Source: Petroclostridium sp. X23
GTDB lineage: Bacteria; Bacillota; Clostridia; SK-Y3
Direction of reading: 5' to 3'
NCBI RefSeq assembly: GCF_030013905.1
Contig: NZ_CP124862.1
Coordinates: forward strand, 62,001-126,000
DNA length: 64,000 nucleotides
Shown here one piece after another: positions 9,232-41,698 of the stretch. Under the pieces are notes generated by a model that saw only the letters and a program-made list of their open reading frames with translations, did no database searches and was not told where the DNA came from. Every line of letters starts with the position of its first letter. The first letter of the stretch is position 1. A program made the translations under genes and the position numbers.

Positions 9232-9244
9232 ATTTTGGAGGTAG

Positions 9245-11248
<2,004 letters not shown>

Positions 11249-11733: not shown

Positions 11734-11969
11734 ATGATTGAAAAAAGATACTTGTAAGAAAATGGATCATCTCTGATACGTTCTGTTGTCAAAGCTTTAA
11801 GTATTCTAAATCTGCTTGCAATTAATAAACGAAGTATGTCTTTGGCAGAAATATCTAAGAAGATGAACCTGGCTAAAAGTACAAGTACATGGATTGCTTT
11901 CAACTTTGAGGAATTTTAGCATTAGGTTATCGCAGATCAGTATTAGGAGGAGATATCAATGGAAGTTAG
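11734..11969 (+). pseudogene. Decayed IclR-family regulator with internal deletion
   Basis: The frame begins MIEKRYL, like the intact regulator at 37941, but codon 8 is TAA instead of TCA. An insertion in the recognition-helix region (KSTSTW in place of KSTVHG) shifts the frame. After about 180 bp the sequence jumps directly to the C-terminal codons ALGYRRS-LGGDINGS and the stop at 11967-11969. The wing, hinge and effector-binding domain are therefore missing. The nucleotide match to the intact copy remains high, so the loss is fairly recent. Its stop overlaps the start of the next gene, as in the intact copy. Confidence 0.85.
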
Positions 11970-12753
11970 AGAATTTCTATTTACAAACATAGAAAATAAA
12001 AGAAGAGAGTTTACTATAATATCTAAAGAAAAAGGAGTTTTGTCTGGGACATTACGTTTAAAACAATTAGCGGATGAATTGAAGATAGAGGTCATAAACA
12101 TAGCCGATGAAGCAAAAAGATTAAACCCGGGAGACTGTGTTCTAGAAGCGATTGGAAATCCTGAGCAAATTATTAGAGCAGAAGAGATGCTTTTAGGTGT
12201 CATTGCGAAACCTTCAGGAATAGCAACCGCTGCAGCAGATTTAGTTCAAGTGGCTGGAGATAAGACTAAGGTGGTTTGCGGTGGATGGAAAAAAGTGGCT
12301 CCGGAGAGTAGAGCAGACTTGCGACAATCCATTATTGCCGGTGGCGCAGGAATGCGTATTACAGATCAGCCATTTGTTTATTTGGATAAAAACTATGTGC
12401 GTCTTCTTGATGGTGTTGGGAATGCTGTAGCACGGGCAAAGGCTTATAAGACCGATCGTATAGTAGTTGTACAGATCCGAGGCGAAACGCGGCCCATATT
12501 TGATGAAGCGACTGAAGCAGTAGAAGCTGGAGCTGGAATAGTCATGGTTGATACCGGAAAAATGGAAGACCTGGAAAAAGTAATTGAGACGGCAATTAGA
12601 CATGGATGGCGAAATGATTTGCGTATAGCTTTTGCCGGCGGTGTTAATCAAGCAAGTTTAAAGGCAGTAGCTGATTTAGGGGGAGATATTGTGTGTGTAG
12701 GAAGGGCAATCATTGATGCACCTTTATTGGACTTGAGTCTTGATATTAGGTAG
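11959..12753 (+). CDS. NadC/ModD-like (QPRTase-fold) protein, divergent subfamily
   Basis: 264 aa with the quinolinate phosphoribosyltransferase fold: N-terminal sandwich, SGIATAA helix and barrel segments GAGIVMVDTGKMEDLEKV and GGDIVCVGRAIIDAPLLDLS. The family normally converts quinolinate and PRPP to nicotinate mononucleotide, but the NadC signature RKTxPG is replaced here by GGWKKVAPE. The GGGxNHR motif is replaced by AGGAGMRIT, so known substrate-binding Arg and His residues are missing. A paralogue at 26123 has the same changes. It starts inside the C-terminus of the IclR pseudogene (GGAGG at 11946-11950). Function unknown; likely a related phosphoribosyl- or acid-binding role. Confidence 0.75.
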   Translation: MEVREFLFTNIENKRREFTIISKEKGVLSGTLRLKQLADELKIEVINIADEAKRLNPGDCVLEAIGNPEQIIRAEEMLLGVIAKPSGIATAAADLVQVAGDKTKVVCGGWKKVAPESRADLRQSIIAGGAGMRITDQPFVYLDKNYVRLLDGVGNAVARAKAYKTDRIVVVQIRGETRPIFDEATEAVEAGAGIVMVDTGKMEDLEKVIETAIRHGWRNDLRIAFAGGVNQASLKAVADLGGDIVCVGRAIIDAPLLDLSLDIR

Positions 12754-12778: not shown

Positions 12779-12880
12779 TTGGAACGTCATGTTTTTATGG
12801 ATTTATCCAATGTTATTACATCATTAGGCCCTCATGAAGAAATAAAACTAGAATGTGATGGGATGATTATTGGTATGTAG
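12779..12880 (+). CDS. Short ORF or gene remnant, 33 codons
   Basis: A TTG-started frame encodes a peptide with VFMDLSNVITSLGPHEEIK, directly after the QPRTase-like gene. There is only a weak GGAAG site. It could be the C-terminal stub of a deleted gene; I do not recognise it. Confidence 0.25.
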   Translation: MERHVFMDLSNVITSLGPHEEIKLECDGMIIGM

Positions 12881-12899
12881 GAAGGGAGGAACAGAGCAG

Positions 12900-13751
12900 T
12901 TGGAAGAATGTAAAATTAAAGTATTAAATGAGGCTATTGTTGCAGGAAAATATATTTATGAAGCTTTTGGGGGGAATAGTAGTATTACAGTCGTAGATGA
13001 AAATTTAAGAATTTATCTACATTTAAATGGCAATAAAATAAGCTTTGATTTAAAAAAAGGTGATCATTTGCCTAAGGGAACAATTATTGATATTGCTATG
13101 AATCAAAAAAAAAGAAACTTTTTGTATGTTAGTAAGGAAAAATCAAAATTCGGATATTCATATACGGGGATTGGTATTCCTGTAGCAGATGAGAATGGCC
13201 GAGTGGTTGGAGGTATAACAATTACATCTTCAGTAGAACGGCTTGAGTTATTAAATAAAATAGGGTCTGTACTTTCCGATATATCGGGTCAAACGTTAGA
13301 AGGTATCGATACAATGTCTGATAACGCAGTTAAACTTTCACAAACCATAGGGAAGCTTTTAGAAATTACGGATGAAACGAAAGAAGGCTTAGCCGTAATA
13401 GAAAAAGTAATAAAAATGATAAAGGGAATAGTAGATCAAACAAAACTATTGGCTTTAAATGCAACTATTGAAGCTGCACGTGCAGGAGATGCAGGGAGAG
13501 GCTTTGCAGTAGTTGCAAAAGAAATAAGAAATTTGGCAGTAACTTCTCAAGATGGTGTAGATGAGACATCTAAGAAATTACTTCAGATTTCAAAAGCGGT
13601 AGAAATTATTGCGGAATATATTTCTGATATTAATAATGCATCAGAATATCAAGCTGCTATGACAGAAGAAATCAATTCATCTTATACTGAAATTGATGAG
13701 TATATCAAAAAAATCTATTTACTTTTGCATGAGGCCAAAGAAGAATTGTAA
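12900..13751 (+). CDS. Soluble methyl-accepting chemotaxis-type receptor
   Basis: 283 aa from a TTG that follows AAGGGAGG; no membrane segment, so cytoplasmic. Residues ~1-115 form a small sensor domain (GTIIDIAMNQKK, GIGIPVADENGRVVGGITI) with PAS/GAF-like alternation. Residues ~130-280 are helical, with the conserved MCP hairpin tip LLALNATIEAARAGDAGRGF and VVAKEIRNLA. The signalling arm is short and methylation sites are few. It presumably tells the chemotaxis CheA/CheW array about an internal metabolite. Its place between the QPRTase-like gene and the TRAP transporter suggests it senses the island's substrate. Confidence 0.8.
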   Translation: MEECKIKVLNEAIVAGKYIYEAFGGNSSITVVDENLRIYLHLNGNKISFDLKKGDHLPKGTIIDIAMNQKKRNFLYVSKEKSKFGYSYTGIGIPVADENGRVVGGITITSSVERLELLNKIGSVLSDISGQTLEGIDTMSDNAVKLSQTIGKLLEITDETKEGLAVIEKVIKMIKGIVDQTKLLALNATIEAARAGDAGRGFAVVAKEIRNLAVTSQDGVDETSKKLLQISKAVEIIAEYISDINNASEYQAAMTEEINSSYTEIDEYIKKIYLLLHEAKEEL

Positions 13752-20148: not shown

Positions 20149-21477
20149 TTATGCAGCAGTCTTATGGTATTCTTTATTCTCAAGGGTTATGGCTATGGCT
20201 TTTGCATGTTGGAGCATGCAAACTAAGGCAGTTCTCACGAAGAAGTTCTTGGTACCCCTAAATAATGGAGATTTAAGACCGTTGTTGAGTACAATATCTC
20301 CAATAACGGATTCTATACGTGCTCTTCTTGAATAGATGTCTTTCCAGAGTTGTGAGCCTCTGGGAACTTGGGTAAACCAACGAATATCATCTTCAATGTG
20401 AGTATAGACTGTCTTGCCATAGCCAGAATCACAACATGGATGATCACACTTTAGTTTTTCAGCCAATTTTTTAGAAGCTTTTCTTGGACACCGCCATTTT
20501 AGTCGTCTTTTTTTCTTATCAATACCCCAATAGTAAAATGTATGACCAGCAGCACAAACAGGCAAACCAAACTCATTAGTAGGTGTTGGAGTTTGAGAAT
20601 TTCTTGGATTAATTGCAATAATAGGCTTACCGCCTAGTAAACTAATCCACCAGTAAACATAATAAGCGTCGTATCCCGAATCAGCAATGACATAATGAAA
20701 GTCAACTTTCAAGTTGTGATAAAGATGCATTATTAGATGTGGTGTCATTCTAACATCGTGGACATCAGCACCTTCGACGAAGAATGTTAGTGGTAGGCAT
20801 TTAGATGGATTATCTATCATAGGAGTTGTTGCAAAATGCAGACCGTATCCCATTAGATATTCATCAAGATTATGATCATAACCTTTTGTGGCTTCGGAGT
20901 CAGTACACATAGAGCATTTAAAGGGTTTTATATTACTGGCATAGCATCTACAATATTTTTCAGGAACATACTTTTGTTTGCAAAAAGATTTTACCTTGCA
21001 GCCGTCAAAGATTACTTTATCATGGGGATCAATGATTCCTAATTCGATAGATTCTTTGACAAATAACAATTCAAATATTTTACGGATTAGAGAACCTTGA
21101 AGCATGACATCTTCAACGTTTTCATCGCCGAAAAGATTAGAGATAAACCAAGAGAAATAAGCCTTAGAGGGCGTCTTGTCAGGAGAGAAACCTGATAGAT
21201 AAGCATATCTTGGTGTATCCCTAAGTTCTTTGACCCATTTATTAATGGATGTAAAGCCAGCAAGGTACATCACAAGTAAAGACCTTAAAGCATCTTGAGG
21301 GCGATAAAGTGCAATACGTCCTGCAGGATTTTGTGAATAAAAATGTAAACAGAAGTCATAAACACGAGATAGATCAATCTTTGATATTATCTTAGCAATG
21401 CTGTCAGTCTCACTGACAGATAGAAATAAATTAAGTTTATAAGCCAGGTGACTCTGGTTTGGTGGAAGCAATGACAT
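20149..21477 (-). CDS. Insertion-sequence DDE transposase
   Basis: 442 aa and apparently intact. Features of a DDE transposase of the IS4/IS5/IS1182-like group: N-terminal helical DNA-binding region (RPQDALRSLLVMYLAGF), first catalytic Asp in HDKVIFDGCKV, a Cys-rich insert with CRCYASN and CSMC, second Asp in YVIADSGYDAYY, and Glu in SRRARIESVIGDI. The exact IS family is uncertain. I could not define terminal inverted repeats or a target duplication by eye. It is the only complete mobile gene in the window and lies between an operator-like site and the aldehyde dehydrogenase operon. Confidence 0.85.
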   Translation of the reverse strand: MSLLPPNQSHLAYKLNLFLSVSETDSIAKIISKIDLSRVYDFCLHFYSQNPAGRIALYRPQDALRSLLVMYLAGFTSINKWVKELRDTPRYAYLSGFSPDKTPSKAYFSWFISNLFGDENVEDVMLQGSLIRKIFELLFVKESIELGIIDPHDKVIFDGCKVKSFCKQKYVPEKYCRCYASNIKPFKCSMCTDSEATKGYDHNLDEYLMGYGLHFATTPMIDNPSKCLPLTFFVEGADVHDVRMTPHLIMHLYHNLKVDFHYVIADSGYDAYYVYWWISLLGGKPIIAINPRNSQTPTPTNEFGLPVCAAGHTFYYWGIDKKKRRLKWRCPRKASKKLAEKLKCDHPCCDSGYGKTVYTHIEDDIRWFTQVPRGSQLWKDIYSRRARIESVIGDIVLNNGLKSPLFRGTKNFFVRTALVCMLQHAKAIAITLENKEYHKTAA

Positions 21478-24585: not shown

Positions 24586-25452
24586 ATGGGAATTAGTTTG
24601 ATCATGATACTTGCATCAGCAGGAGGAGGAATCCTTGGGGCATGCTTAGGAGGACTTCCTGCTATTACGTTGTGGGGTGCTGTATTGCTGATAGCCAGTT
24701 TGGCTGGTATAGCTACCGGGAATGCTGCGATGGTTTGGGATTTTGGATTCAATCCTCTTTTTGGTGCTCAAGTCGTTTTTATTGGTGGAGCGGCAGCTGC
24801 TGCATATGCCTGGTCAAAAGGCAAGCTTGAAACCGGGTTGGATATTCTGAAGCCGTTATCAGGCTTTCAGAAAGTGGATATTCTTTTGGTTGGCGGTATT
24901 TTTGGGATTATAGGGATGATTATTGAGCGTGTTGGTACATCATTAGCAATTCCCACAGATAATGTTGCTTTATCTGTAGTGGTAGCAGGTTGGCTGTCTC
25001 GGTTAATTTTTGATAGAAATTGGCTGAAAAACAGAAGGGAAAAATTAGCAGAAAATAATAGTGGGTGGTTTCCGAAAGGTGATGAGCTGGCTACTCTGAT
25101 TGTAATGGGGGCAGGGATCGGGTTTGCCGGAGGATTAGCGAGTTATAAAATTGGCAGTCCGCTAATTCCTTTTGGTATTGCATTATTATTTATACTATAT
25201 TTGCAAATGGGATTCAAGGGATTAACATGGCATCATATCGTGCTTATCGGAGGTATCGTTGGATTGCAAGAGCAAGGAAGTATGTATGGATTGATTTGGG
25301 CTGCTATCATGGGAGTTGTAGTAGCTATTGTATGCAAATGTATTGAAAATTTAACAATCCCAGAGACTAATTCTTATATTGATCCGCCCGTTACAAGTAT
25401 TGCTATTGGCACTAGTTTAGTAATTCTTCTAACATCGATAGGAGTACTGTAA
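24586..25452 (+). CDS. Multi-pass membrane protein of unknown function
   Basis: 288 aa, ATG behind AAGGAGG. About eight or nine hydrophobic segments rich in Gly and Ala (GGGILGACLGGLPAITLWG, FIGGAAAAAYAWS, VMGAGIGFAGGLASY). It has conserved-looking charged turns FDRNWLKNRREK and GLQEQGSMYG inside the membrane part. Not a recognised transporter family. Downstream of aldehyde and alcohol dehydrogenases, it might move the alcohol, aldehyde or acid across the membrane. A terminator follows. Confidence 0.75.
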   Translation: MGISLIMILASAGGGILGACLGGLPAITLWGAVLLIASLAGIATGNAAMVWDFGFNPLFGAQVVFIGGAAAAAYAWSKGKLETGLDILKPLSGFQKVDILLVGGIFGIIGMIIERVGTSLAIPTDNVALSVVVAGWLSRLIFDRNWLKNRREKLAENNSGWFPKGDELATLIVMGAGIGFAGGLASYKIGSPLIPFGIALLFILYLQMGFKGLTWHHIVLIGGIVGLQEQGSMYGLIWAAIMGVVVAIVCKCIENLTIPETNSYIDPPVTSIAIGTSLVILLTSIGVL

Positions 25453-26122: not shown

Positions 26123-26923
26123 TTGATTGATATACGAAAACAGATTCTTAAATCAATAGAAAATTGCAATTATAAGGCGCAGATAGAAGTTGAAAGAAAT
26201 GGGATTCTGGCAGGCAGTGAAGAAAGTAAGATAGAGTTATCCGAGTTGAGTATGAAATATGAATTTTTTTATAAAGACGGGGAAGAGGTCAAGGCTGGAG
26301 ATACTATTTGTACCGTTTTTGGGAAAGCCGAGGAAATTATTAAAGCGGAAGAAGTAGTAATAGGAAAGATGGCAAAAGCTTCGGGCATTGCAACAGCTAC
26401 AAGGGAATCTGTACGATTGGCAAATGGAAAGTGTAAAATTGTTGCCGGAGCGTGGAAAAAAATGCCGAAAGAAATCAAACCAATGATACAAAAAGCTGTA
26501 AGAATTGGTGGAGCAAGTACAAGGTTAATAGAAGAAACTTTTATATATCTGGATAAAAATTATATCAGAATGTTTGGAAGTATAAAAAATACATTAATAG
26601 CAGTTAACAATATCTCTGGTTGGAAGAAAGTGATTCAACTAAAGGGAGAAGAAAGCAGTATTGAAGAAGAGGCCTATACAGCAATTAAATATCATGCTGA
26701 TATCATAATGGTTGATACGGGAAAAATGGAAGACATGATTGCAGCTAAAAATGTCATTAGGCAATGCGAAGTGGAAGAAAACATAAAACTGGGATTTGCG
26801 AGTGAATTGCTTATTTCGAAAATACCTGAATATGCACAGGTTGGCGTAGATTTTTTATGTTTCGGTAAACAAATCATAGATGCACCATTACTTGATATGA
26901 AACTTGATGTGAGTAAACTTTAG
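26123..26923 (+). CDS. NadC/ModD-like (QPRTase-fold) protein, second paralogue
   Basis: 266 aa from a TTG behind GGAGG. Same fold and same unusual signature as the gene at 11959: AGAWKKMPKE in place of RKTxPG, GGASTR in place of GGGxNHR, and the shared YLDKNYIRM segment. Its C-terminus (FLCFGKQIIDAPLLDMKLD) also matches. Overall identity between the two paralogues is only moderate. It starts a long operon and lies 13 bp before the MoCF-domain gene. It is probably not a true NadC; no nadA or nadB is nearby. Possible roles are a phosphoribosyl transfer to another cyclic acid, or a binding/regulatory function. Confidence 0.75.
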   Translation: MIDIRKQILKSIENCNYKAQIEVERNGILAGSEESKIELSELSMKYEFFYKDGEEVKAGDTICTVFGKAEEIIKAEEVVIGKMAKASGIATATRESVRLANGKCKIVAGAWKKMPKEIKPMIQKAVRIGGASTRLIEETFIYLDKNYIRMFGSIKNTLIAVNNISGWKKVIQLKGEESSIEEEAYTAIKYHADIIMVDTGKMEDMIAAKNVIRQCEVEENIKLGFASELLISKIPEYAQVGVDFLCFGKQIIDAPLLDMKLDVSKL

Positions 26924-26936
26924 AAGGAGAAATAAA

Positions 26937-27821
26937 ATGAGTTTGAATATGCTAAATAAAACCGAGGTATGGATAGGCCCTATAAAACTTGAGAATGCAA
27001 ATTTAACTGATATTGCAAGATTAACTGCCGAAGTATTAAGCCTGCCCAGTGATAAAGTATTAGTAGTAGATGTAAGAGAAGATCATATAAGCCTTGATAT
27101 TTTAATTGAAGAAATTGAACCGTCTGCAATCATGGGCAAAAAGAAAATTTTACTTGAAAGATTAAGCAGCATAAAAGGATGCAATGTGTTTGAAGAAACA
27201 AGAATATGTTCCCATGGCATCTTGGGTATTATTGATTTGGATGAAGCAGAAATAAAGGAATCCATGAGAATGTCGGAAGAAATGAGTGTACAAATAAAAA
27301 ATAAAGTAATTAAAAGGGTCAAGGTATTTCCGACAGGATTTGAGCTAAAGAAAGGCATGATCGAAGATACCAATTCGATTTATATAAAAGATGAATTAGA
27401 GAAGTCAGGATATAAAGTAGATATAGGTCAAGTCCTTGACGACGATGTAGATTTGATTTCCGGAAATATACGGAGAGCAGTCAATGATGGCTATGGCATC
27501 GTTATTACCACAGGAGGGGTTGGTGCTGAAGATAAAGATAAGACTGTTGAAGCCATTGGAAAGATAGATCCTGATGTAGCATCACCATATATTGTGAAAT
27601 TTGAAAAAGGAACAGGAAGACACGTCAAAGATGGGGTGAGGGTTGCGGTAGGGAAGTCAGGATTATCATATATTATTGCTTTCCCGGGTCCTAATGACGA
27701 AGTTAGATTAGCTTTAAAAGCTATAAAACCATTGCTGGAAGCAAATCAGGATAAACATGTGATAGCAAATGCAATGGCCCATGTATTAAAACATAAGATA
27801 GGAAATAAGTTCAAACATTGA
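26937..27821 (+). CDS. MoCF-domain (CinA/MoaB-like) protein
   Basis: 294 aa, ATG behind AGAAGGAG. Residues ~1-125 form an N-terminal region of unknown fold. Residues ~125-285 are a molybdopterin-binding/MoCF domain, with VFPTGFELKKGMIEDTN, DDDVDLISGNIRRAV, IVITTGGVGAEDKDKTVEA and IAFPGPNDEV, the same order as in CinA N-domains and MoaB/MogA. Related proteins adenylylate molybdopterin or cleave ADP-ribose-type pyrophosphates. It follows the QPRTase-like gene closely. It may help make the tungstopterin of the AOR at 39208 or process a nucleotide-like cofactor; this is inference. Confidence 0.75.
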   Translation: MSLNMLNKTEVWIGPIKLENANLTDIARLTAEVLSLPSDKVLVVDVREDHISLDILIEEIEPSAIMGKKKILLERLSSIKGCNVFEETRICSHGILGIIDLDEAEIKESMRMSEEMSVQIKNKVIKRVKVFPTGFELKKGMIEDTNSIYIKDELEKSGYKVDIGQVLDDDVDLISGNIRRAVNDGYGIVITTGGVGAEDKDKTVEAIGKIDPDVASPYIVKFEKGTGRHVKDGVRVAVGKSGLSYIIAFPGPNDEVRLALKAIKPLLEANQDKHVIANAMAHVLKHKIGNKFKH

Positions 27822-28017: not shown

Positions 28018-29358
28018 TTGTTTACTTCATTAAGAGAATGGATTAGTTTTCTGAAAGAAAATAATATGATTTCAGAAATCAAGAAAAAAGTCTCTATCAA
28101 TTTTGAAATTGCGGGAGTCACTAAACTTTATGATGGAGAAAAAGCATGTTTATTCAATAATGTAGACGGATTTGAAATGCCTGTAATATCAAACGCCGTA
28201 TACGATAGGGAAAGCATTGCTGTATCCGTTGGGTCAAACAAAGAAAACCTGGTCAGCAAATTTTTGGATAGTATGGAGGTGCCTATAAAATGTGAAATGT
28301 CAAGTAACGTTGCTCCATTTAAACAGAATTTGTTACTAGGGGATGAGGTAGACCTTCTAAAACTTCCTATTCCTATTCATCATGAAAAGGACGGAGGCAG
28401 ATATATTACGGCAGGTTTGCTGATTGTCAAAGACATCAGCACCGGCAAGCAGAACGTATCCATTCACAGGCTGCAGGTCTTTAATAAAAATGAAATGGGT
28501 ATTTTGATATTACCCAGACATTTGTGGCACATATTTTCTAAATATGAAAAAGAACAGAAAGAACTTGATATAGCCATTTGTATTGGTAATGCGCCTGCAC
28601 TCATGTTAGCTTCACAAGCAATTACACCTTATGGTGTTGATGAACTGGAAATAGCCAATGCGCTATTAAATAACAATTTAAAGCTATCTAAGTGCGAGAC
28701 TGTAAACGTTGATGTACCGGAAAATACAGAAATTGTAATAGAAGGAAAACTGATTCCGGGCATGCGAAAAGAAGAAGGTCCTTTTGGAGAGTTCCCAAGA
28801 TATTACGGGCCGGCAGGCAATAGACCGGTAATAAAAGTGACTGCGGTCGGTTACCGGAATGATGCGCTATACCACACAATTCTTCCCGGAACAAAAGAAC
28901 ATTTACTCTTAGGAGGAATTGCAAGAGAAGCTTCTATGATCAAGACAATTTCACATACAGTTCCGTCAGTAAAAGGTGTTCATCTAACCTTTGGTTCATC
29001 CTGCAGATATCATGCAATCGTATCTATTAAAAAGGAACACGAAGGGGAAGGTAAAAATACAATTTTGGCCGCATTCTCCAACAGTCATGAAGTAAAGCAG
29101 GTGATTGTGGTAGACGATGATATAGATATTTTTGATCACGACCGCGTAGAATGGGCTGTGGCCACACGTTTTCAAGCAGGGAAGGATATGATTGTTGTGA
29201 AAGGAAGCTTAGGCTCGAAGTTAGATCCATCCTCAGATGAAGGGATATCGGATAAAGTAGGTATGGATGCTACCTTGCCAATTAAAAGAGATAATAACAA
29301 ATTTGATGTAATGACAATTCCCGGATTGGACGTAATGAAAAAAGAAGATTATATATAA
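28018..29358 (+). CDS. ubiD: UbiD-family decarboxylase
   Basis: 446 aa from a TTG behind AAGGAGGGGG. UbiD enzymes use prenylated FMN to decarboxylate aromatic, heteroaromatic or alpha,beta-unsaturated acids. Features: SLREWISFLKENN at the N-terminus, KDISTGKQNVSIHRLQV, the prFMN/Mn site EGPFGEFPRYYGPA, and VDDDIDIFDHDRVEWAVATR. Its cofactor would come from the UbiX at 41132. It is in one operon with ferredoxin/BFD, LarA-like and aldolase genes, so it is catabolic rather than for ubiquinone. Substrate not known. Confidence 0.92.
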   Translation: MFTSLREWISFLKENNMISEIKKKVSINFEIAGVTKLYDGEKACLFNNVDGFEMPVISNAVYDRESIAVSVGSNKENLVSKFLDSMEVPIKCEMSSNVAPFKQNLLLGDEVDLLKLPIPIHHEKDGGRYITAGLLIVKDISTGKQNVSIHRLQVFNKNEMGILILPRHLWHIFSKYEKEQKELDIAICIGNAPALMLASQAITPYGVDELEIANALLNNNLKLSKCETVNVDVPENTEIVIEGKLIPGMRKEEGPFGEFPRYYGPAGNRPVIKVTAVGYRNDALYHTILPGTKEHLLLGGIAREASMIKTISHTVPSVKGVHLTFGSSCRYHAIVSIKKEHEGEGKNTILAAFSNSHEVKQVIVVDDDIDIFDHDRVEWAVATRFQAGKDMIVVKGSLGSKLDPSSDEGISDKVGMDATLPIKRDNNKFDVMTIPGLDVMKKEDYI

Positions 29359-29431
29359 TCATTTATTAGAATGATAAGCCGAGTTTTCTAATTAAATATT
29401 TTATGACCAAATTATTTAAGGGGGGTTAGTG

Positions 29432-30040
29432 GTGAAGACTGTAACATGGTTAGCAGAAATAAATGAAGAAAAATGTATCGGGTGTGGAACTTGTGAAAAA
29501 GTGTGTCCTGTATATGCCATCAAGATGAAAGAAAGAAAAGCGATAGTGGATGTTAACTTATGTACCGGATGCGCAAATTGTAATCAGAGATGTCCTGTTT
29601 ATGCGATTGAATTAATTAAAAGGGACCAACCACTAAAATTAAAGGTGGATGTTTCCTCTGTGGATGCTGTGAAAGTAGATGAAATCTGCAAAAAAGCTAA
29701 ATTCAATCCCCAGCAGATTATCTGCTATTGTACTGAAACCAGGGCAGACGAGGTTGCAGCGGCAATACTTAAAGGAGCAGATACGCCCGAGAAGATTTCT
29801 CAAATGACGGGGATTAGAACAGGGTGCGGTGTAGAATGTATTCAGCCTATATTAAGACTTCTTGATGCGGCTGGGATTGTTCCTGAAAAACCGAAGGGAT
29901 GGCAGTGGTATGGAAAGACGCCAACAGTTTGGGACATCCCGGCTGATGTAAGAGAAAAGTATAATAAAAGCGGTTTCTACTTTGAGGAAGATCAAAAATT
30001 ATTGGACGAAATATCAGAAACAAGGGTGAAGAAAGGGTGA
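29432..30040 (+). CDS. Ferredoxin fused to a BFD-like [2Fe-2S] domain
   Basis: 202 aa. Residues ~10-65 carry two [4Fe-4S] motifs, CIGCGTCEKVCP and CTGCANCNQRCP. Residues ~90-140 carry a BFD-type cluster: CYC, then about 32 residues, then TGCGVEC. The tail has no clear motif. GTG start behind AAGGGGGG; GTG at 29429 is an alternative. Likely an electron carrier for a partner oxidoreductase. No such partner is adjacent; the AOR at 39208 is a candidate. The ferredoxin-BFD fusion is seen in dehydrogenase complexes of anaerobes. Confidence 0.85.
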   Translation: MKTVTWLAEINEEKCIGCGTCEKVCPVYAIKMKERKAIVDVNLCTGCANCNQRCPVYAIELIKRDQPLKLKVDVSSVDAVKVDEICKKAKFNPQQIICYCTETRADEVAAAILKGADTPEKISQMTGIRTGCGVECIQPILRLLDAAGIVPEKPKGWQWYGKTPTVWDIPADVREKYNKSGFYFEEDQKLLDEISETRVKKG

Positions 30041-30045
30041 AGAGT

Positions 30046-31482
30046 ATGAAACAACCTATTATACCGATTGAACCTAGATCGTCACAATACGGGATTGTTC
30101 CTGGAATGGTAAAAAAGAGGATGTATCAATATGATAATATCACATCTTTGATGATCAAAGACTTGTTTGCAGATACGCCCGACGTCATTTATCCCAGTGA
30201 GCAAGGAATATCTTCTGTAAAACAATCTGCATTGAAAGCGTTGGAAAATGTAGATATGAGTTTTATCAAGCCGGGAGATTCAGTGAATATATGCTGCTCT
30301 CATCATGGATTTACAATGGTTGGAGGACAGCCGTATGCAGAGCTTATAAAAGCTTTGAGAGATGTAATCAGTGAGAGAACAGGAACTGACAATATTCGTA
30401 TAAGAGCCGGCGTAGGATTGCGGTTCAGAGAAACGGAAGAATATATTAAAAGATACGGCCTTGATACATATTTTAAAGGTAAAGCGAAAGGTGTGGCTCC
30501 CATCGATGAAGGAATTCCTATTGAAACGGAAATAGGGACGCTATATGGATTAAAAGCCATCTATGATGCTGATTGGATCGTCCATTGCCATAATAGTGAT
30601 GTAAGAGAGGTTCATTTTCACAGGCAGGTAGATAGAGCGGTAAAACCGTTCGGAATGTCTTATGCAAGAATTGAGACACGGTCTACTTATCACCAGAATC
30701 TTGGACCAAGAGCAGCGAATTTCGTGGCAAGAGCTATATTCGGTTCTGAATTTGTACAAAGCAAGTTTGCATTTGCGGCATTTTTAGAAATGTCTCCTGC
30801 AGGGGTAATCAGTGTTGATGCGGATAATGATCTTATGGCATTAAATGAAAGGATGCTTATATCCGGATGTCGATACTATGGGAAAATTATGACGCTTCTT
30901 GGAGAAATAGATGAATGTATTGTAGGACTGGACTTTCCCTGCCCAGTACCTTATGTATTTGCAGCAGGTGTAATTTATGCGAATTTTGCAGGAGCAAATT
31001 GCGATCTGTTCGATCTGGATAATGCATTGGCACCCTATACTTGGTATACCGAAGCGTTTTACAATAAAGACTCTGTTCCATTAACATCAAAGATTCCACC
31101 GGTTAATCCTGCTATTAAGATGGTTGTACATAATTACGCATGGGGCGGATACCCAAGTGCATTTTTTAGCAAGCACATTCCGACTATCGTGGTGGGCAGA
31201 GAACAAGCAGATCTATTTAATAAAGATTCTCAAAATCTTGAATATATGAAATATGGAGTCATAGCCGATCATTTAGATACAGCTATGGAATTTGCATATA
31301 AGCAAGCGAAGACAGATAAGGTAATCATATTTGATGGTGCGGTAGGAGGCGTTAATATCAGCACATCCCTTGCAGAGCTATTAATAGAAAAAGCACCTGC
31401 TGTAAATAAGAAAGTGGATGAAGAAATGCTGCCGAAGTGGCTGAAGCAAAGAGGAATAGATATCAATTCTATAAAACTATAA
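30046..31482 (+). CDS. LarA-like (lactate racemase family) protein
   Basis: 478 aa; ATG chosen 9 bp behind GAAAGG (GTG at 30037 is possible). From memory the order matches LarA. A GDSVNICCSHHGFTMVGG segment stands where LarA has its SSDHTRP loop. Next come RIRAGVGLRFRETEEYIKRY, the central ADWIVHCHNSDVREVHFHRQ His cluster, and the end HIPTIVVGREQADLF plus LDTAMEFAYKQAKTDKV. LarA enzymes use a nickel pincer nucleotide made from nicotinate adenine dinucleotide to racemise or epimerise hydroxyacids. The key Lys for cofactor attachment is not obvious to me. No LarBCE in the window. Family call moderate, function open. Confidence 0.6.
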   Translation: MKQPIIPIEPRSSQYGIVPGMVKKRMYQYDNITSLMIKDLFADTPDVIYPSEQGISSVKQSALKALENVDMSFIKPGDSVNICCSHHGFTMVGGQPYAELIKALRDVISERTGTDNIRIRAGVGLRFRETEEYIKRYGLDTYFKGKAKGVAPIDEGIPIETEIGTLYGLKAIYDADWIVHCHNSDVREVHFHRQVDRAVKPFGMSYARIETRSTYHQNLGPRAANFVARAIFGSEFVQSKFAFAAFLEMSPAGVISVDADNDLMALNERMLISGCRYYGKIMTLLGEIDECIVGLDFPCPVPYVFAAGVIYANFAGANCDLFDLDNALAPYTWYTEAFYNKDSVPLTSKIPPVNPAIKMVVHNYAWGGYPSAFFSKHIPTIVVGREQADLFNKDSQNLEYMKYGVIADHLDTAMEFAYKQAKTDKVIIFDGAVGGVNISTSLAELLIEKAPAVNKKVDEEMLPKWLKQRGIDINSIKL

Positions 31483-31650: not shown

Positions 31651-32535
31651 ATGAGCACAAAAAAGATTAAAGCAGCAATTGTCGGTCCCGGAAATATAGG
31701 AATAGACTTGATGTTCAAGCTTTTGAACAGTTCTTATATAGAAGTAGATACGATGGTTGGTGTAGTAAAAGAATCAAAGGGATTGCAGCTGGCGCGAGAA
31801 AAAGGAATTAAAGCTACTTCTGACGGGGTAAAAGAAATATTGGGTAATAAAGAGATAGAGCTTGTTTTTGAAGCAACCAGCGCAAAAGCACACTTGGCAA
31901 ATGCTCCTCTATATAAAGAAGATGGTAAGATTGCCATAGATTTAACACCGGCGATGATAGGTCCTTTTGTGGTTCCTGCAGTAAATATCGAACAAAATCT
32001 CGATACCGATAATGTAAATATGGTAACTTGTGGTGGCCAGGCTACCATACCTATGGTTGCAGCCATAAATTCGGTTCAACCTGTAGAATATGCGGAAATT
32101 GTAGCCACCATATCCAGCCGCAGTGCAGGACCGGGTACACGGCAAAATATAGATGAGTTTACAGAGACAACATCCAAGGCAATATGTGAAGTAGGTGGTG
32201 CCAAAAAGGGTAAGGCGATCATAGTGTTAAATCCGGCTGAACCTCCCATCATTATGCGAGATACGGTATATGTGAAGGTAAAAGATCCTAACGAAGAAGA
32301 GATTACAAAAGCTGTAAAACAGATGGAACAAAAAGTGCAAGAATATGTGCCCGGATATAGAGTGAAAGCAGGTCCATTATTTGATGGTGATAAGGTGACC
32401 GTAATGTTGGAAGTGGAAGGTGCCGGTATGTATCTTCCTAAATATTCGGGAAATCTTGATATTATGACAGCAGCAGCAAAAGCAGTAGGAGAAAAGATTG
32501 CGTACAAATTGCTAAAAGAAAGAGGTGAAGTGTAA
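31651..32535 (+). CDS. mhpF: Acetaldehyde dehydrogenase (acylating)
   Basis: 294 aa, MhpF/DmpF family: acetaldehyde + CoA + NAD+ to acetyl-CoA. Rossmann motif [13 protein letters not shown] at the N-terminus, catalytic Cys in [17 protein letters not shown], and [17 protein letters not shown]. The stop codon overlaps the start of the aldolase gene, as is usual because the two enzymes form a channelling complex. GGAGG precedes the ATG. In an anaerobe it would yield acetyl-CoA for ATP formation. Confidence 0.95.
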
Positions 32536-33533
32536 TGAAAAAAGTCAGAATTATAGATACCACTTTGCGGGATGGGATGCATGCGGTGAGTCATCAATTT
32601 ACTCCCGAAGATATGGCTGAAATTGCTAAAGCGTTAGATGATGCCGGGGTGGATACGATTGAAGTGAGCCATGGAGATGGATTAGGGGGTTCATCTTTTC
32701 AATATGGGTTTGCTAAAGCAAAAGAAGAGGAATATCTGGAGGCAGTTTCTAAAGTTTTAACAAAAACGAAATTAGCTGTACTGTTACTACCCGGTATCGG
32801 GACGGAAAAAGATCTGGAAAAAGCTGCGAAAAATGGAGCGACCGTGGTTAGAGTTGCTACGCATGTTACAGAAGCAGACATCGGTGAGCAACATATAAAG
32901 ATGGCAAAAAAACTTGGTATGGAAGCCATCGGATTTTTAATGATGACTCATATGGCAAGTGCAGAAAAAATCGTTGAGCAGGCCAAGCTTTTCGAAAGCT
33001 ATGGAGCAGATGCGGTATTTGTAACAGATTCTGCCGGTGCGATGGCGTCTTCAGAGGTAAAAGAAAGGATTGAAGCTGTTAAGAAAGCAATATCTTTACC
33101 TATAGGCCATCATTCACACAACAATTTAGGCCTTTCCATCGCGAATAGCCTAGCAGCAGTTGAAGCAGGAGCGGAAATCATAGATGGTACCTGTAAGGGC
33201 CTTGGCGCTGCTGCCGGAAATGCAATGACAGAAGTTTTAACAACGGTATTTAAGAAGATGGGATATGAGACGGGGATAGACTTTTATAAAATTATGGATG
33301 CAGCTGATGATGTAGTAGCTCCGAAACTTCATAGGCCTCAAGTGATTACAAGAGAGGCTTTGAGCATTGGTTATGCAGGAACCTATGGAAGTTTTCTTCT
33401 TCATTCCTTAAGAGCAGCAGAAAAGTTTAACGTAGACGCAAGAGATATATTAATCGAAATGGGAAGAAGAAAAACAGTAGGTGGGCAGGAAGATATGATT
33501 ATTGATGTTGCGTATGAGCTTTCTCATCAATAG
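32535..33533 (+). CDS. mhpE: 4-hydroxy-2-oxovalerate aldolase
   Basis: 332 aa, DmpG/MhpE family: 4-hydroxy-2-oxopentanoate to pyruvate plus acetaldehyde. Key parts: IIDTTLRDGMHAVSHQFT with the catalytic/metal-binding Arg-Asp, EVSHGDGLGGSSFQYG, GHHSHNNLGLSIANSL with the metal His pair, and IDGTCKGLGAAAGN. The C-terminal DRE-TIM communication domain is complete. Start overlaps the mhpF stop. Confidence 0.96.
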   Translation: MKKVRIIDTTLRDGMHAVSHQFTPEDMAEIAKALDDAGVDTIEVSHGDGLGGSSFQYGFAKAKEEEYLEAVSKVLTKTKLAVLLLPGIGTEKDLEKAAKNGATVVRVATHVTEADIGEQHIKMAKKLGMEAIGFLMMTHMASAEKIVEQAKLFESYGADAVFVTDSAGAMASSEVKERIEAVKKAISLPIGHHSHNNLGLSIANSLAAVEAGAEIIDGTCKGLGAAAGNAMTEVLTTVFKKMGYETGIDFYKIMDAADDVVAPKLHRPQVITREALSIGYAGTYGSFLLHSLRAAEKFNVDARDILIEMGRRKTVGGQEDMIIDVAYELSHQ

Positions 33534-33567: not shown

Positions 33568-34353
33568 ATGGATAAAAAAGATATCGTAAAAGCTTCAACA
33601 CTACTGGAACAAGCAAGTAAAACTAAAGAGCCTATAGAACAGCTAACAAAGATGTTTCCTGAAATGAGTATTGCCGAGGCATATGCGATTCAGCGAGAGA
33701 ACATTGAAAAAAGAATACAGATGGGTAGAAGTGTAATCGGAAAAAAAATAGGACTTACAAGTGTAGCTATGCAGAAAATGTTGGGTGTGGATAGTCCGGA
33801 TTATGGGTTTATTATGGAGGATATGATTGCTGATGAAGAGACTCCTCTAAGTTTGAAGGGATTTATACAACCTAAGGTTGAAGCAGAGTTGGCATTTGTA
33901 TTAAAGGAAGACCTAAAAGGACCTGGCGTCACCATATCAAAAGTATTGCAGGCAACTGAAGGGATAATGGCATCCTTTGAAATTATTGATAGCAGGATTA
34001 AAGATTGGAAGATTAAGCTTGAGGATACTATTGCCGATAATGCATCAAGTGCAATGATTGTGTTGGGAAGTAAAATGGTTCCTGTTGATAGCATTAATTT
34101 GAAATATACAGGTCTTGTCTTGGAAAAGAACGGAGAAATAGTGGATACCGCAGCAGGTGCGGCAGTTTTGGGACATCCGGCTTTAGCGGTTGCATGGCTG
34201 GCAAATGAAATGGCAAAATACGATGTTGTATTAAAAAAGGGTGAAATCATTCTGGCGGGCGCGTTTACCAAGGCTCTAGAGATTAAAGAAGAAGATGTTT
34301 TTACAGCTACTTTTGATGGAGTTGGCAGCGTAAAAGCAAAATTCATAAAGTAG
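33568..34353 (+). CDS. mhpD: 2-oxopent-4-enoate hydratase / oxalocrotonate decarboxylase family
   Basis: 261 aa of the MhpD/XylI fold. GKKIGLTS carries the conserved Lys and [12 protein letters not shown] the two metal-binding Glu. [22 protein letters not shown] and [17 protein letters not shown] complete the family pattern. Hydratase (to 4-hydroxy-2-oxopentanoate) and decarboxylase (from 2-oxohex-3-enedioate) members are hard to tell apart by eye. Either activity feeds the adjacent aldolase and acetaldehyde dehydrogenase, giving pyruvate and acetyl-CoA. Confidence 0.9.
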
Positions 34354-34409: not shown

Positions 34410-36374
34410 ATGGAAATGATAGATTACTTGTATATTCCGCCGCTATGTGCATTGGCTGCGCTGATATTTGCATATTTTTTAGCTCAGAATATTAATAAAA
34501 TGGATCCTGGTAATGATAGGATGCAGGAAATAGCAAAATATATTCATGAAGGATCTCTTGCTTTTCTTAAAAGGGAATATAGGGTACAAAGTGGTATTGC
34601 AGTCCTGCTATTTCTATTGCTTGCATGGAAAATTTCAATTTATACTGCACTGTGTTTTATGGCAGGAGCACTTTGTTCGGTGCTTGCAGGATATATTGGT
34701 ATGAAGATTGCGACTAAAGCGAATGTACGGACAGCCAATGCTGCAAAGCAGGGTATTAAACCCGCTTTGGAAGTTGCTTTTTCAGGTGGCGCGGTGATGG
34801 GAATGTCTGTGGTAGGATTAGGGCTACTTGGCCTTAGTGTTTTATGGATCATTTTCAGAGATACGACCATAATTACCGGTTTTGGTTTAGGAGCCAGCTT
34901 TGTTGCGCTATTTGCCAGAGTTGGAGGCGGTATTTATACGAAAGCTGCTGATGTAGGAGCAGATCTGGTTGGGAAAGTAGAAGCGGGTGTCCCGGAAGAT
35001 GATCCTCGTAATCCCGCTGTTATCGCAGATAATGTAGGAGACAATGTAGGAGATGTTGCCGGAATGGGAGCGGATTTATTTGAATCCTATGTAGGTGCCA
35101 TTATTTCTGCCATAACGTTAGGGATGTGGACTTTTGGAATCAATGGTACGGTATTTGTGATGTTGTTAGTAGCAGCAGGGATTATCGCATCTATTATCGG
35201 CAGTATATTTGTGAAAAAAGGAAAAAGTGAAAATCCTCATATGTCTCTTCAGGTGGGAACGTATGTAAGTGGGGGATTGTTTATCATTGCTGCACTGGTA
35301 ATCAGTTTGCTGGTTTTGGAAAGCTTAAGAGGAGCATGGGCGGTAATAACGGGATTGGTTGTAGGAATTATGATAGGCCAAATAACAGAATACTACACTT
35401 CTTCAGATTATAATCCTGTAAAAGAAATTGCAAAGCAATCTGAAACAGGTGCTGCTACAAATATTATCTCGGGATTAGCTCTTGGAAAGAAGAGTACTGC
35501 TTTTCCAATTCTTCTCATCTGTGTCGGCATCTATATTTCATATCTAACGATGGGACTATATGGTATTGCTTTAGCAGCGGTAGGAATGCTTTCTATTACC
35601 GGGATGACAGTGGCGGTTGACGCGTATGGTCCTATTGCCGATAATGCCGGTGGTATTGCTGAAATGGCGCATTTGGATAAAGCGATCCGTAAAGTTACCG
35701 ATAAACTGGATTCGGTTGGAAATACAACTGCGGCCATAGGCAAAGGATTTGCTATTGGTTCTGCGGCACTGACTGCTTTGGCATTATTTGCTTCATATTC
35801 TCAGGCTGTAGGGCTTGAAATCATTAATCTAGTAGATGCTAAAACCATCATAGGTCTCTTACTGGGAGGAATGCTGCCGTTCTTATTCTCGTCTATGGCA
35901 ATGGAATCTGTTGGCCAAGCGGCTTCTTCCATGATTCAAGAGGTTAGAAGGCAGTTTAGAGAGATAGAAGGGCTTATGGAAGGCGAAGCTACACCGGACT
36001 ATGCCCTGTGTGTGGATATCAGTACCAGAGCTGCTTTGAAGAAGATGATTTCTCCCGGATTACTTGCGGTGTTGTCACCGCTTATTGTAGGAATGGTTTT
36101 AGGTAAAGAGGCACTTGGAGGATTACTTGCCGGTGCTTTAGTTACAGGTGTAATGCTGGCGATTCAAATGGCGAATGCCGGAGGTGCTTGGGATAATGCC
36201 AAAAAGTATATTGAAGAAGGAAACCATGGAGGTAAAAGTAGTACTGCACACCAAGCTGCCGTAACTGGAGATACGGTAGGGGACCCTTTTAAAGATACAG
36301 CAGGACCCTCTATTAATATATTGCTTAAACTCATGACAATTGTGGCATTGGTGTTTGCACCGTTATTTATATGA
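34410..36374 (+). CDS. hppA: Membrane-bound ion-pumping pyrophosphatase
   Basis: 654 aa with about 16 membrane helices. Signature regions: the catalytic [51 protein letters not shown], and [20 protein letters not shown] at the end. [10 protein letters not shown] has Ala where K+-independent enzymes have Lys, which points to the K+-dependent class. H+ versus Na+ pumping cannot be settled here. As the last gene of the catabolic operon it would recover energy from PPi made by an AMP-forming CoA ligase or a phosphoribosyltransferase. Confidence 0.95.
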
Positions 36375-36537: not shown

Positions 36538-36547
36538 TGGAATGCTT

Positions 36548-37324
36548 ATGAATAAGAAAAAGACTGGAATCATACAATCTGTTGACAGGGCATTAACAAT
36601 AGTAGAGACGATGTATAATGCAAAAGAAGAACTAGGGGTCACAGAACTGGCTGACATTATTGGTTTGCACAAAAGTACAACTTTTGGTCTTTTAAGCACA
36701 CTTGAAAACAGAGGATTTGTAACACAAAATAAAGATACGGGAAAGTACGGATTAGGCCTTAAGTTCTTGGAAATAGGTACTGAAATTCTTGAAAATATGG
36801 ATGTTCGGCAGATCATCAAGCCGTATTTGAGGGACTTATCGGAAAAATATCAAGAGACAGTTCACTTTGCAGTAGAAGATGATAATATGGTTGTATATAT
36901 TGATAAAATAGAGAGTCCACGGGCATTAGTCATTAAATCTTCTATTGGTAAACGAAATCCGATGCACTGCACAGGGGTTGGAAAATGCCTGTTATCATTT
37001 ATGAGCGAAGAAAAGCAAAACGAGATATTAAAAGAACCTCTTGAAAAATACACAGACAATACAATAGTTGACCCAAAGAACCTGAATGAGGAAATTGATA
37101 AAATCAGAAAAAATGGTTATAGTATTGATAACGAAGAAATTGAAATCGGGTTAAGATGTATAGCAGCTCCAATATTTGATTACAAAGGAGAATTGCTGGG
37201 AGGAATAAGTATTTCCGGACCAAGCACAAGGATGACGGACGAAAGAATAGTTGAATTAATTGAACCATTGAAAAGTACGGCGTCTAAAATTTCTAAAAGT
37301 CTCGGACATTATAAGCATATATAA
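36548..37324 (+). CDS. IclR-family transcriptional regulator
   Basis: 258 aa. N-terminal winged helix (TIVETMYNAKEELGVTELAD, then LHKSTTFGLLSTLENRGFV) and a C-terminal GAF-like effector domain (ETVHFAVEDDNMVVYIDK, MHCTGVGKCLL, GGISISGPSTRM). ATG at 36548 is 8 bp from GGATGG; ATG at 36542 is an alternative. IclR proteins bind small aromatic or aliphatic acids and usually control adjacent catabolic genes. This one follows the hppA end of the operon by 173 bp. Confidence 0.92.
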   Translation: MNKKKTGIIQSVDRALTIVETMYNAKEELGVTELADIIGLHKSTTFGLLSTLENRGFVTQNKDTGKYGLGLKFLEIGTEILENMDVRQIIKPYLRDLSEKYQETVHFAVEDDNMVVYIDKIESPRALVIKSSIGKRNPMHCTGVGKCLLSFMSEEKQNEILKEPLEKYTDNTIVDPKNLNEEIDKIRKNGYSIDNEEIEIGLRCIAAPIFDYKGELLGGISISGPSTRMTDERIVELIEPLKSTASKISKSLGHYKHI

Positions 37325-39192: not shown

Positions 39193-39207
39193 TAAGGAGT
39201 GGGAAAT

Positions 39208-41049
39208 TTGCTGGGTGGTTATGCGGGAGAAATATTATGGATAGATTTGACCAATAGGCAGTATCGCAAAGAGAAAGTAACTGAAGATATGGCACGTACA
39301 TGGCTTGGAGGCAGCGGTTTTGCGGCGGCTGTCGTGTCTGAAATGGTACCGCCCCACGCAGATCCGCTGGGACCGGAAAATATTCTAGGGTTTTTTACCG
39401 GACCGTTGACAGGAACGCCTGTACCGTCCTCCGGGAGGCATAGTGTGGCGGGTAAATCACCTCTTACAGGGATTTGGGGTGAAGCCAGTGTCGGGGGTAA
39501 TTGGGGACGGGCTTTGAAATATGCCGGTTACGATGCGGTAGTTCTTACGGGGCAGTCGTCAGAGCCGGTTTATATATGGATTCATGAAGATAAAGTGGAA
39601 ATCCGTTCGGCAGAAAATTTATGGGGAATGGATACCTATGAAATTGAGGAAGCTATCCGAAAACTAACTCATCCCAAAGCACAGGTTTCATCTATAGGGT
39701 CTGCAGGGGAAAGACTTTCTAAAATTGCTGGAATTTTTACCGATGGTCATGAAGGACGGACGGCCGCAAGATGTGGTTTAGGTGCCATTGCCGGATCAAA
39801 GAAAGTAAAAGCTATTGCTGTATATGGACAAAAAACGCTTCATTTTGCAGATAAGGCAGCATTATTAAAGAAGATAAAAGAGGTAACACCCACAATCAGG
39901 GAAAGGGCAAAAGGCACTTCGGATTTGGGAACAGCCGGGCTAGTGATACCTTGTGAGAAAATTGGTGATTTTCCGGTAAAGAACTGGACGCTTGGCTCCT
40001 GGGAAGAAGGCGCTATGAAGATCAGTGGGGTTGCATTGAAGGAAAAATATTTAACCGGCCGTTTTCACTGCTTTGCTTGTCCCATCGGCTGCGGACGCCA
40101 AATTGCCATCACAAAAGGGAAATATAGCGGTTTGCATGGCGCAGGGCCGGAATACGAGACCCTTGGTTTGTTTGGCGGTTCATGTCTTATTGATGACTTG
40201 GAAGCTATCTGTTATGCAAATGAGTTGTGTAACCGCTATGGTGTAGACACAATAGAAGTAGGAAACCTAATTGCTTTTAGTATGGAAGCATATGAAAAAG
40301 GCATTATTACCAAGGAAGATACGGACGGCAGAGAAATCAAATGGGGAGATACCGAAATATTTATTGAGTTAGTAAAAGAAATAGGAGAAGTAAAAGGATT
40401 TGGAGCAATTTTATCGCAAGGATTTCCGGATTTAATCAAAAAGTATGGACATGCAGTTAAAGAAATCAGTATTGTTGCTAAGGGACTCAGCTTTCCGGCT
40501 CACGAACCAAGGGCTTACAATAGTCTTGCTCTTGGCTATGCTACAGCAAATAGAGGTGCTTGCCACTGTGAAGCATTCAGTCATCCTTTTGAACGAAGCC
40601 TAACCATGCCCGAATTGGGGATTGAAAAAAGCATGGATAGATTTGCAAAGGAAGGTAAGGGTGAACTGGTAGCGAAGTCACAGAACTATATGATGCTCTT
40701 TGATTCTGCGGCATTGTGTAAGTTTACTATGCTTGGCGGGGCGGTAACGCCAACCATTCTTGCAGAGTGGATATCTCTGGCAACAGGTATATATTGGTCA
40801 TGGGAAGAATTACTGAAATGTGGAGAGCGTATTTTTAATAAAAAGCGTCTCTTCAATATCCAATGCGGTGTTGACCGTAAAGAAGATACTTTGCCTGAAA
40901 GGATTCTCAAGGAACCGCGGGGAAGTGGCGGTGCAGCCGACAATCTTCCCCCATTGGAAGCGATGTTAGATGACTATTACGCATTTCGTGGTTGGGATAG
41001 TAATGGGATACCAACCATAAAGAAACTGCAGGATTTAGGACTAGCGTAG
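39208..41049 (+). CDS. Tungsten-type aldehyde:ferredoxin oxidoreductase family
   Basis: 613 aa, usual AOR length. The start is taken at TTG 39208 (MLGGYAGEILWIDLT), 8 bp behind AAGGAG; GTG at 39199 lies inside that site. N-terminal tungstopterin-binding region with GGSGFAAAVVSEMV, GRHSVAGKSPLTG and GNWGRALKYAGYD. The [4Fe-4S] ligands are CFACPIGC with a fourth Cys in DSAALCKF. It oxidises an aldehyde to an acid, or reduces a carboxylate, with ferredoxin. Aromatic-acid-specific members exist, so it may act on the island's substrate. Confidence 0.92.
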   Translation: MLGGYAGEILWIDLTNRQYRKEKVTEDMARTWLGGSGFAAAVVSEMVPPHADPLGPENILGFFTGPLTGTPVPSSGRHSVAGKSPLTGIWGEASVGGNWGRALKYAGYDAVVLTGQSSEPVYIWIHEDKVEIRSAENLWGMDTYEIEEAIRKLTHPKAQVSSIGSAGERLSKIAGIFTDGHEGRTAARCGLGAIAGSKKVKAIAVYGQKTLHFADKAALLKKIKEVTPTIRERAKGTSDLGTAGLVIPCEKIGDFPVKNWTLGSWEEGAMKISGVALKEKYLTGRFHCFACPIGCGRQIAITKGKYSGLHGAGPEYETLGLFGGSCLIDDLEAICYANELCNRYGVDTIEVGNLIAFSMEAYEKGIITKEDTDGREIKWGDTEIFIELVKEIGEVKGFGAILSQGFPDLIKKYGHAVKEISIVAKGLSFPAHEPRAYNSLALGYATANRGACHCEAFSHPFERSLTMPELGIEKSMDRFAKEGKGELVAKSQNYMMLFDSAALCKFTMLGGAVTPTILAEWISLATGIYWSWEELLKCGERIFNKKRLFNIQCGVDRKEDTLPERILKEPRGSGGAADNLPPLEAMLDDYYAFRGWDSNGIPTIKKLQDLGLA

Positions 41050-41131
41050 TTGTAAATGATTTAGCAATATGACTACTTTATAAATGCGGTTATTTAAATT
41101 AATGGACAGCAAGATTAAAGGGGAGATAAAC

Positions 41132-41698
41132 ATGAGATTGGTTGTTGCGATTACGGGGGCAACCGGGGCAATTTATGCAATGCGTCTATTGGAGGAACTT
41201 AAAGCGAAAAAAGTGGAAGTGCATTTAATTTTAAGTGAATGGGCAGAGGAAACATTGCGAATTGAAATGAACATGAAGAAAGAGTCCTTAATAGAACTGG
41301 TTGACTATTATTATTTGGAGTCAGATATGACAGCACCGGTAGCTAGCGGTTCGTTCCAGCATCAAGGCATGATCATAATACCTTGCAGTATGAAAACTCT
41401 GTCCGGAATTGCTCACGGTTATGCTGAGAATTTAATCATTCGTGCTGCTGATGTATGTTTGAAGGAATGTCGAAGACTCATATTAGTTCCCCGTGAAACA
41501 CCTCTAAATGCTATACATCTTGACAATATGCTGAAGTTAGCAAAGTTAGGTGTCGAGATCGTACCGCCTATGCCGGCTTTTTACAATCATCCTGTAACTA
41601 TTGAGGAAATAGTCAATCAATTGATTGCAAGAATATTGGATCAATTGGGTTTAGAACATAATCTAGTAAAAAGATGGGGAGATACGATGAAATCATGA
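41132..41698 (+). CDS. ubiX: Flavin prenyltransferase UbiX
   Basis: 188 aa from ATG behind AAAGGGGAG. Rossmann-type N-terminus VVAITGATGAIYAMRLLEEL, the SGSFQHQGMIIIPCSMKTLSGIAHG block, and the VPRETPLNAIHLDNM motif that binds the dimethylallyl phosphate. It makes prenylated FMN, the cofactor of the UbiD at 28018. It follows the AOR by 82 bp. The decayed ubiX stub next to ubiD means this is now the only copy in the window. Confidence 0.94.
   Translation: MRLVVAITGATGAIYAMRLLEELKAKKVEVHLILSEWAEETLRIEMNMKKESLIELVDYYYLESDMTAPVASGSFQHQGMIIIPCSMKTLSGIAHGYAENLIIRAADVCLKECRRLILVPRETPLNAIHLDNMLKLAKLGVEIVPPMPAFYNHPVTIEEIVNQLIARILDQLGLEHNLVKRWGDTMKS

Follow-up and report, generated by a model that had tools for sequence, protein, structure and literature searches.

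The window, a 64,000-nucleotide stretch of the Petroclostridium sp. X23 genome, carries two genes of one QPRTase-fold subfamily, Q1 (11959..12753, 264 aa) and Q2 (26123..26923, 266 aa, with a TTG start and GGAGGG upstream), both on the plus strand like all genes listed below from M to UbiX. Q2 is followed, 13 nt past its stop, by M (26937..27821, 294 aa), which consists of an N-terminal region of about 125 residues and a MoCF domain with an intact TTGGxGAEDKD motif; Q1 has no M of its own. Downstream of M lie the genes for a UbiD-family decarboxylase (28018..29358), for F (29429..30040, 203 aa), with two 4Fe-4S motifs and a BFD-like [2Fe-2S] domain, and for L (30037..31482, 481 aa), a distant LarA-fold protein matched by no family model. 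They are followed by an acetylating acetaldehyde dehydrogenase (31651..32535), a 4-hydroxy-2-oxovalerate aldolase (32535..33533), a 2-oxopent-4-enoate hydratase family protein (33568..34353), an IclR-family regulator (36542..37324), an aldehyde ferredoxin oxidoreductase (AOR) family protein recognised by Pfam (39199..41049), and UbiX, the flavin prenyltransferase that supplies the UbiD cofactor (41084..41698; TIGR00421 260 bits, cut-off 109). In the catabolic cluster, a gene for a membrane H+ pyrophosphatase (34410-36374) separates those for the hydratase and IclR, and a probable membrane protein of 288 aa (24586-25452), with no Pfam or NCBIfam match, is encoded directly upstream of the module. 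The Q1/TRAP block is separated from the Q2 block by a transposase-like ORF on the minus strand (20149-21477).

Both Q1 and Q2 matched the N- and C-terminal QRPTase domains of Pfam, and they are 34-35% identical over their full length (E=3e-54). In Foldseek, the top matches of the Q2 model (pLDDT 96.3) were only NadC and NAPRT folds (E 8.7e-23; TM about 0.8, up to 0.86), in agreement with the NadC barrel that the preliminary description of this DNA had assigned to both proteins. The motif replacements it had reported are also there: both proteins have G(A/G)WKK at the position of NadC TRKTxPG and GGAxxR at that of GGGxNHR. Scores against the NCBIfam nadC equivalog were 113-116 bits, well under the cut-off of 198.4, and those against the ModD model TIGR01334 were 43 and 36 bits (cut-off 178.9).

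We aligned 50 Q relatives with 16 NadC sequences from module-bearing genomes, and compared the residues of the quinolinate/PRPP site (R105, R139, K140, H161, R162, K172, E201, and D222) using the numbering and residue roles of the M. tuberculosis QPRTase. Only K140, R162, and D222 are retained in all 50 Q relatives. R105 is replaced by E or D in 49/50, R139 by W in 43/50, K172 by D in 49/50 and E201 by R or K in 46/50, while H161 is variable. N174 and G270 are also retained, and three invariant residues were gained: a Lys at T141, a Lys at D173, and a Gln at E199. From the QPRTase-like model and these losses it follows that Q is a QPRTase fold in which the quinolinate pocket has been rebuilt and the ribosyl-phosphate side partly remains. 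That quinolinate chemistry is lost, as had been claimed at the outset, is likely on the basis of this alignment. It falls short of proof because some residues are kept (K140, R162, and D222) or shifted by one, a Lys standing directly after the positions of both K140 and K172.

Q and NadC have in common the whole fold, the two-domain order, K140, R162, D222, and the C-terminal glycine. One could hence take Q1 and Q2 for two additional NadC or ModD enzymes of the ordinary kind, joining quinolinate or a close analogue to PRPP, and the shared fold (TM about 0.8) and the three retained residues would agree with this. Yet R105, R139, H161, K172, and E201 are replaced in almost all 50 Q sequences, together with the TRKTxPG and NHR motifs, and a branch with 100/100 support splits Q from both NadC and ModD, giving it the clade of its own that had been anticipated. 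Moreover, a regular NadC in a complete nadB-nadC arrangement (locus L001) and a ModD (L002) are encoded elsewhere in the X23 genome, so that Q1 and Q2 are dispensable for NAD synthesis; Q sits in a catabolic module, not in an NAD operon. We consider the chances of this explanation close to negligible. ModD shares the QPRTase fold with Q, and both are non-NAD branches, but the ModD of X23 retains RKSFPG and HR motifs, and Q does not score as ModD. Within the tree, Q2 groups with Fusibacter paucivorans, and Q1 with Moorella and Clostridium luticellarii. A recent Q1-Q2 duplication is ruled out by these different partners, and the two genes did not arise as a pair by simple duplication, a point that the preliminary description had missed. 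Four outgroup rows (NAPRT) were placed among the Q sequences on a branch of length 9.6, and were judged to be long-branch artefacts.

M is a clear member of the MoCF fold (PF00994, 66 bits; cut-off 26.6), and scored under every cut-off of the MoaB, MogA, and CinA equivalogs. The TTGGxGAEDKD and PGP motifs are kept in M and in 31 aligned relatives, with the TTGG motif invariant. Thus, M has the fold motifs (TTGGxG..D and PGP) in common with MoaB, MogA, and CinA, but differs from them in having its own N-terminal region and, in its relatives, a His-rich tail, and in being tied to L and Q rather than to Moco genes. Histidine makes up 18.6% of the C-terminal tails of M relatives against 2.1% of their bodies (p=4e-43); the tails of Q and L show no enrichment of this kind, and the tail of the window M holds a single His. 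His-rich tails are typical for nickel chaperones, and in MogA/MoeA the MoCF fold adenylylates and metallates a phosphorylated dithiolene (molybdopterin). Six further MoCF genes are present in the X23 genome, and M is therefore not required for the molybdenum cofactor.

A scan of genome contigs yielded 80 loci, spanning Bacillota, Desulfobacterota, Archaeoglobus, Borrarchaeota, Chloroflexota, Actinomycetota, and Alphaproteobacteria. Among the 37 with full flanks, Q was found in 37, M in 36, L in 35, and F in 35, and the same loci held the hydratase in 25 cases, the aldolase in 23, and the acetaldehyde dehydrogenase in 23. The coupling of Q2 to a MoCF gene that had been noticed in the window is conserved: M lies at most 150 nt from Q on the same strand in 56/77 loci, and Q and M form a single fused ORF in several (e.g.: L022, L027, L049, L057, and L068). 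L is found in 69/81 loci. Gene orders recur too (IclR-Q-M-hydratase-acetaldehyde dehydrogenase-aldolase-F-L-BenE, F-L-Q-M, and Q-F-L-M), with IclR genes in 40/81 loci and a BenE-like aromatic-acid symporter in 24. Q, M, F, and L hence constitute a widespread and conserved four-protein module, of which we found no description in the openly accessible literature on anaerobic furoate degradation, on the nickel-pincer nucleotide (NPN) and furan, or on QPRTase and LarA. One locus (L044) has two L paralogues (3670-5202 and 8407-9831), each with its own F gene.

These counts bear on the preliminary suggestion of a cofactor step linked to either the AOR or the LarA-like protein of the window: the link to the latter is very strong, while an AOR is present in only 8/81 loci. 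If the Q-M pair helped to provide the nearby AOR with its tungsten or molybdenum cofactor, the MoCF domain of M would be accounted for, as would the AOR genes of the window (39199) and of a small number of other clusters. The rarity of AOR compared to L (8 loci against 69) and the six other MoCF genes of X23, which can serve Moco, make this very improbable, and we rejected AOR/Moco as the main link of Q-M. The AOR at 39199 is possibly an accessory enzyme for furan-aldehyde oxidation.

We sought the same association in 399 independently drawn genomes of the phylum, 29 of which contained M; adding the metagenome-assembled genome G027 gave an M-positive set of 30. In these genome-wide tests, which were done by searches alone, L was present in 28/30 M-positive and 0/41 M-negative genomes (Fisher p=9e-18), and a Q-like match in 27/27 module genomes checked. 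One of the two M-positive genomes without L is G107, whose M contains a stop and which is also missing LarB, LarC, and LarE; the whole system seems to be decaying there. Of the pincer cofactor genes, LarB adjoins the module in 14/81 loci, LarC in 15/81, and LarE in 8/81. LarE scored above cut-off in 28/30 M-positive genomes, LarC was found in 27/30 M-positive and 24/41 control genomes, and LarB in 25/27 and 22/38. There is one clear exception: G027 (L006, L008, and L025) has a complete module and none of LarB, LarC, or LarE was found in it, owing either to an assembly gap or to another source of the cofactor. In another genome (G364), LarC alone is missing.

The relationship of L to LarA is remote. 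L had no Pfam match even at E<=10 and no NCBIfam match, neither phmmer nor a profile search of the PDB gave a sequence match, and hhalign of L against LarA profiles returned a probability of 1.5%. Given the failure of these sequence-level searches, the assignment is carried by the fold and by residue spacing only. All 10 PDB matches of the L model (pLDDT 93) with E<1e-3 are LarA-family structures (best E 4.9e-10; TM 0.36-0.52). In three MAFFT modes, H193, K203, and H219 of L align with the catalytic His, the NPN-linking Lys, and the Ni-ligand His of LarA, and their spacing (10 and 16) is identical in both proteins (for the roles of the LarA residues see PMC7583248 and PMC12611868). Among L relatives, K203 is conserved in 42/42 and H219 in 43/43, and the position of the catalytic H174 of LarA is a His in 33/42. 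In contrast, L has F92 at R75 of LarA (the NPN-phosphate Arg), H/E89 at D72 (the ribose Asp), and R129 at H108 (the second catalytic His), so that the LarA set of two catalytic His plus the cofactor-site Asp and Arg is incomplete. With these three residues replaced, L is unlikely to be a plain racemase, and it may differ from LarA in how it binds the nucleotide portion of the cofactor.

Our computations thus place L, as modelled, as a very distant LarA-fold relative with the key Lys and His. It shares with the LarA superfamily the fold, the NPN-linking Lys, the Ni-ligand His, mostly one catalytic His, and LarB/C/E as neighbours, and departs from it in lacking a sequence-profile match, the second catalytic His, and the phosphate Arg, and in having constant partners (F, M, and Q) and a catabolic redox setting. 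We propose that F is the electron donor to L. No L was found in the plasmid collection.

Among the genes around the module, the aldolase (TIGR03217, 520 bits; cut-off 286) and the acetylating acetaldehyde dehydrogenase (TIGR03215, 453 bits; cut-off 282) both scored over their equivalog cut-offs, and represent the lower oxopentenoate (meta-cleavage) pathway. The hydratase scored under the equivalog cut-off of its best family (TIGR03220, 299 bits against 408.8). The closest solved structure to the window UbiD is PtHmfF (6H6V; PMC8988006), a furan-2,5-dicarboxylate decarboxylase, with 527 bits over residues 3-446, i.e.: the full length, and the next solved UbiD has 203 bits. By similarity, the window enzyme is probably of the HmfF type. 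UbiD proteins at least 50% identical to it occur in 7/30 module genomes and 0/41 controls, and in each of the seven the gene shares a contig with L, at a distance of about 20 kb or less. As in the aerobic Hmf furan pathway, an HmfF-like UbiD would yield 2-furoate, but furoyl-CoA ligase and furoyl-CoA dehydrogenase were not recognised among the window genes examined, and the window has an oxopentenoate-type lower pathway instead. Beside Q1 (12870-13751) there is a gene for a protein with a methyl-accepting-chemotaxis-like C-terminus, which has a relative inside a module cluster (L012:14504-15337), possibly involved in substrate sensing.

Altogether, we propose that Q, M, F, and L form a reductive ring-opening module for the anaerobic catabolism of five-ring heteroaromatic acids, here most likely 2-furoate, with Q and M as cofactor partners; we give this reading a probability of about 0.5. 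The HmfF-type UbiD would convert furan-2,5-dicarboxylate to 2-furoate. L would hold a nickel-pincer-type pyridinium nucleotide through Lys203 and His219, the ferredoxin F would supply the electrons that charge this cofactor, and a hydride and a proton would be transferred to the furan ring. The resulting dihydrofuroate would open to 2-hydroxypenta-2,4-dienoate (2-oxopent-4-enoate): on paper, the opening of 2,5-dihydrofuroate is a vinylogous elimination, and its product is the substrate of the hydratase. The hydratase, aldolase, and acetaldehyde dehydrogenase would then lead to pyruvate and acetyl-CoA. The balance from 2-furoate to 4-hydroxy-2-oxovalerate (C5H4O3 + 2[H] + H2O = C5H8O4) is a two-electron reduction, which fits a ferredoxin adjoining L. 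What the computations show is the module with its linkage, the fold and key residues of L, the residues lost in Q, the lower pathway, and the relative of HmfF; the substrate, the reduction of the ring, and the tasks of Q and M are inferences.

The identity of the ring is the first point at which this scheme may be challenged. The module could open or reduce another acid, such as pyrrole-2-carboxylate or some other hetero- or homo-aromatic acid, with the HmfF-like UbiD handling the analogue. By losing ammonia, dihydropyrrole-2-carboxylate could arrive at the same C5 intermediate, many ring acids are handled by UbiD relatives, 23/30 module genomes have no HmfF-like gene, and BenE-like symporters occur at the loci. 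Against this, HmfF is by far the nearest to the window UbiD among the solved UbiD structures, and HmfF-like genes, where present, adjoin the module. For the window, we regard a substrate other than a furan acid as rather unlikely.

The second point is the job of Q and M. Most likely, they would modify, metallate or load the pincer nucleotide used by L. Q, M, and L all point to pyridinium nucleotides or metals, since their folds are those of NaMN-forming, molybdopterin-adenylylating and -metallating, and pincer-nucleotide enzymes. Alternatively, both could act on the substrate: Q would bind the ring acid in the old quinolinate pocket, and either open the dihydro ring or prime the acid by making it a nucleotide, and M would be the partner that handles nucleotides. 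The retention of R162, K140, and D222 in Q, the added invariant Lys113, Lys145, and Gln172, and the position of Q genes among catabolic genes would suit such a role, and ring opening by Q would need a carbanion beside the carboxylate, as in quinolinate decarboxylation. Nevertheless, furoate has no ring nitrogen to which a ribosyl group could be attached, the tail of M relatives, being rich in His, speaks for metal handling, and Q and M persist even where the cluster lacks the oxopentenoate pathway, which is in favour of a more general role. We therefore hold a substrate role to be unlikely, and prefer the cofactor role, to which we give even odds. The preliminary idea of a new ligand or cofactor was right in its direction and too narrow, missing the wider module and its furan/oxopentenoate setting. 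In its most specific form, our proposal is that a ferredoxin-fed LarA-fold reductase dearomatises furan acids and opens their ring with no need for oxygen, CoA or ATP, using a (modified) nickel-pincer cofactor that is tailored and loaded by a NadC-fold protein put to a new use and by a MoCF-fold nickel protein; this we advance tentatively, at slightly less than even odds.

To our knowledge, the reactions in which LarA enzymes employ the nickel-pincer nucleotide are all racemisations and epimerisations. If true, the proposed reaction would be the first case known to us in which this nucleotide serves a net redox reaction, and would supply the missing ring-opening step of anaerobic furan degradation; a gene-level account of furan ring opening in strict anaerobes was not found in the openly accessible literature searched. 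The furans concerned (furfural, HMF, and FDCA) are biomass inhibitors and plastic monomers. The four linked genes are present in the culturable Fusibacter paucivorans, Moorella, Desulfofundulus, and Sporomusa, where the pincer-redox and the furan questions can be tested together. The module also gives context to a QPRTase subfamily and a LarA-fold family that the database models used here miss.

Gene content varies among clusters. About a third of the loci, many of them proteobacterial, carry the module without oxopentenoate genes, and furoate is thus not its sole substrate. Examples are the Q-F-L-M-type clusters of L031, L032, L034, L040, L052, L053, L054, and L060. These clusters likely act on another substrate, given the acyl-CoA-metabolism-like genes near the modules of L034 and L053. 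In Desulfofundulus-type clusters (L036, L037, L042, and L084), genes for an iron alcohol dehydrogenase and an AOR lie either next to the module or in the interval from the aldolase to M, where one would expect the enzymes of a front end that handles furfuryl alcohol and furfural.
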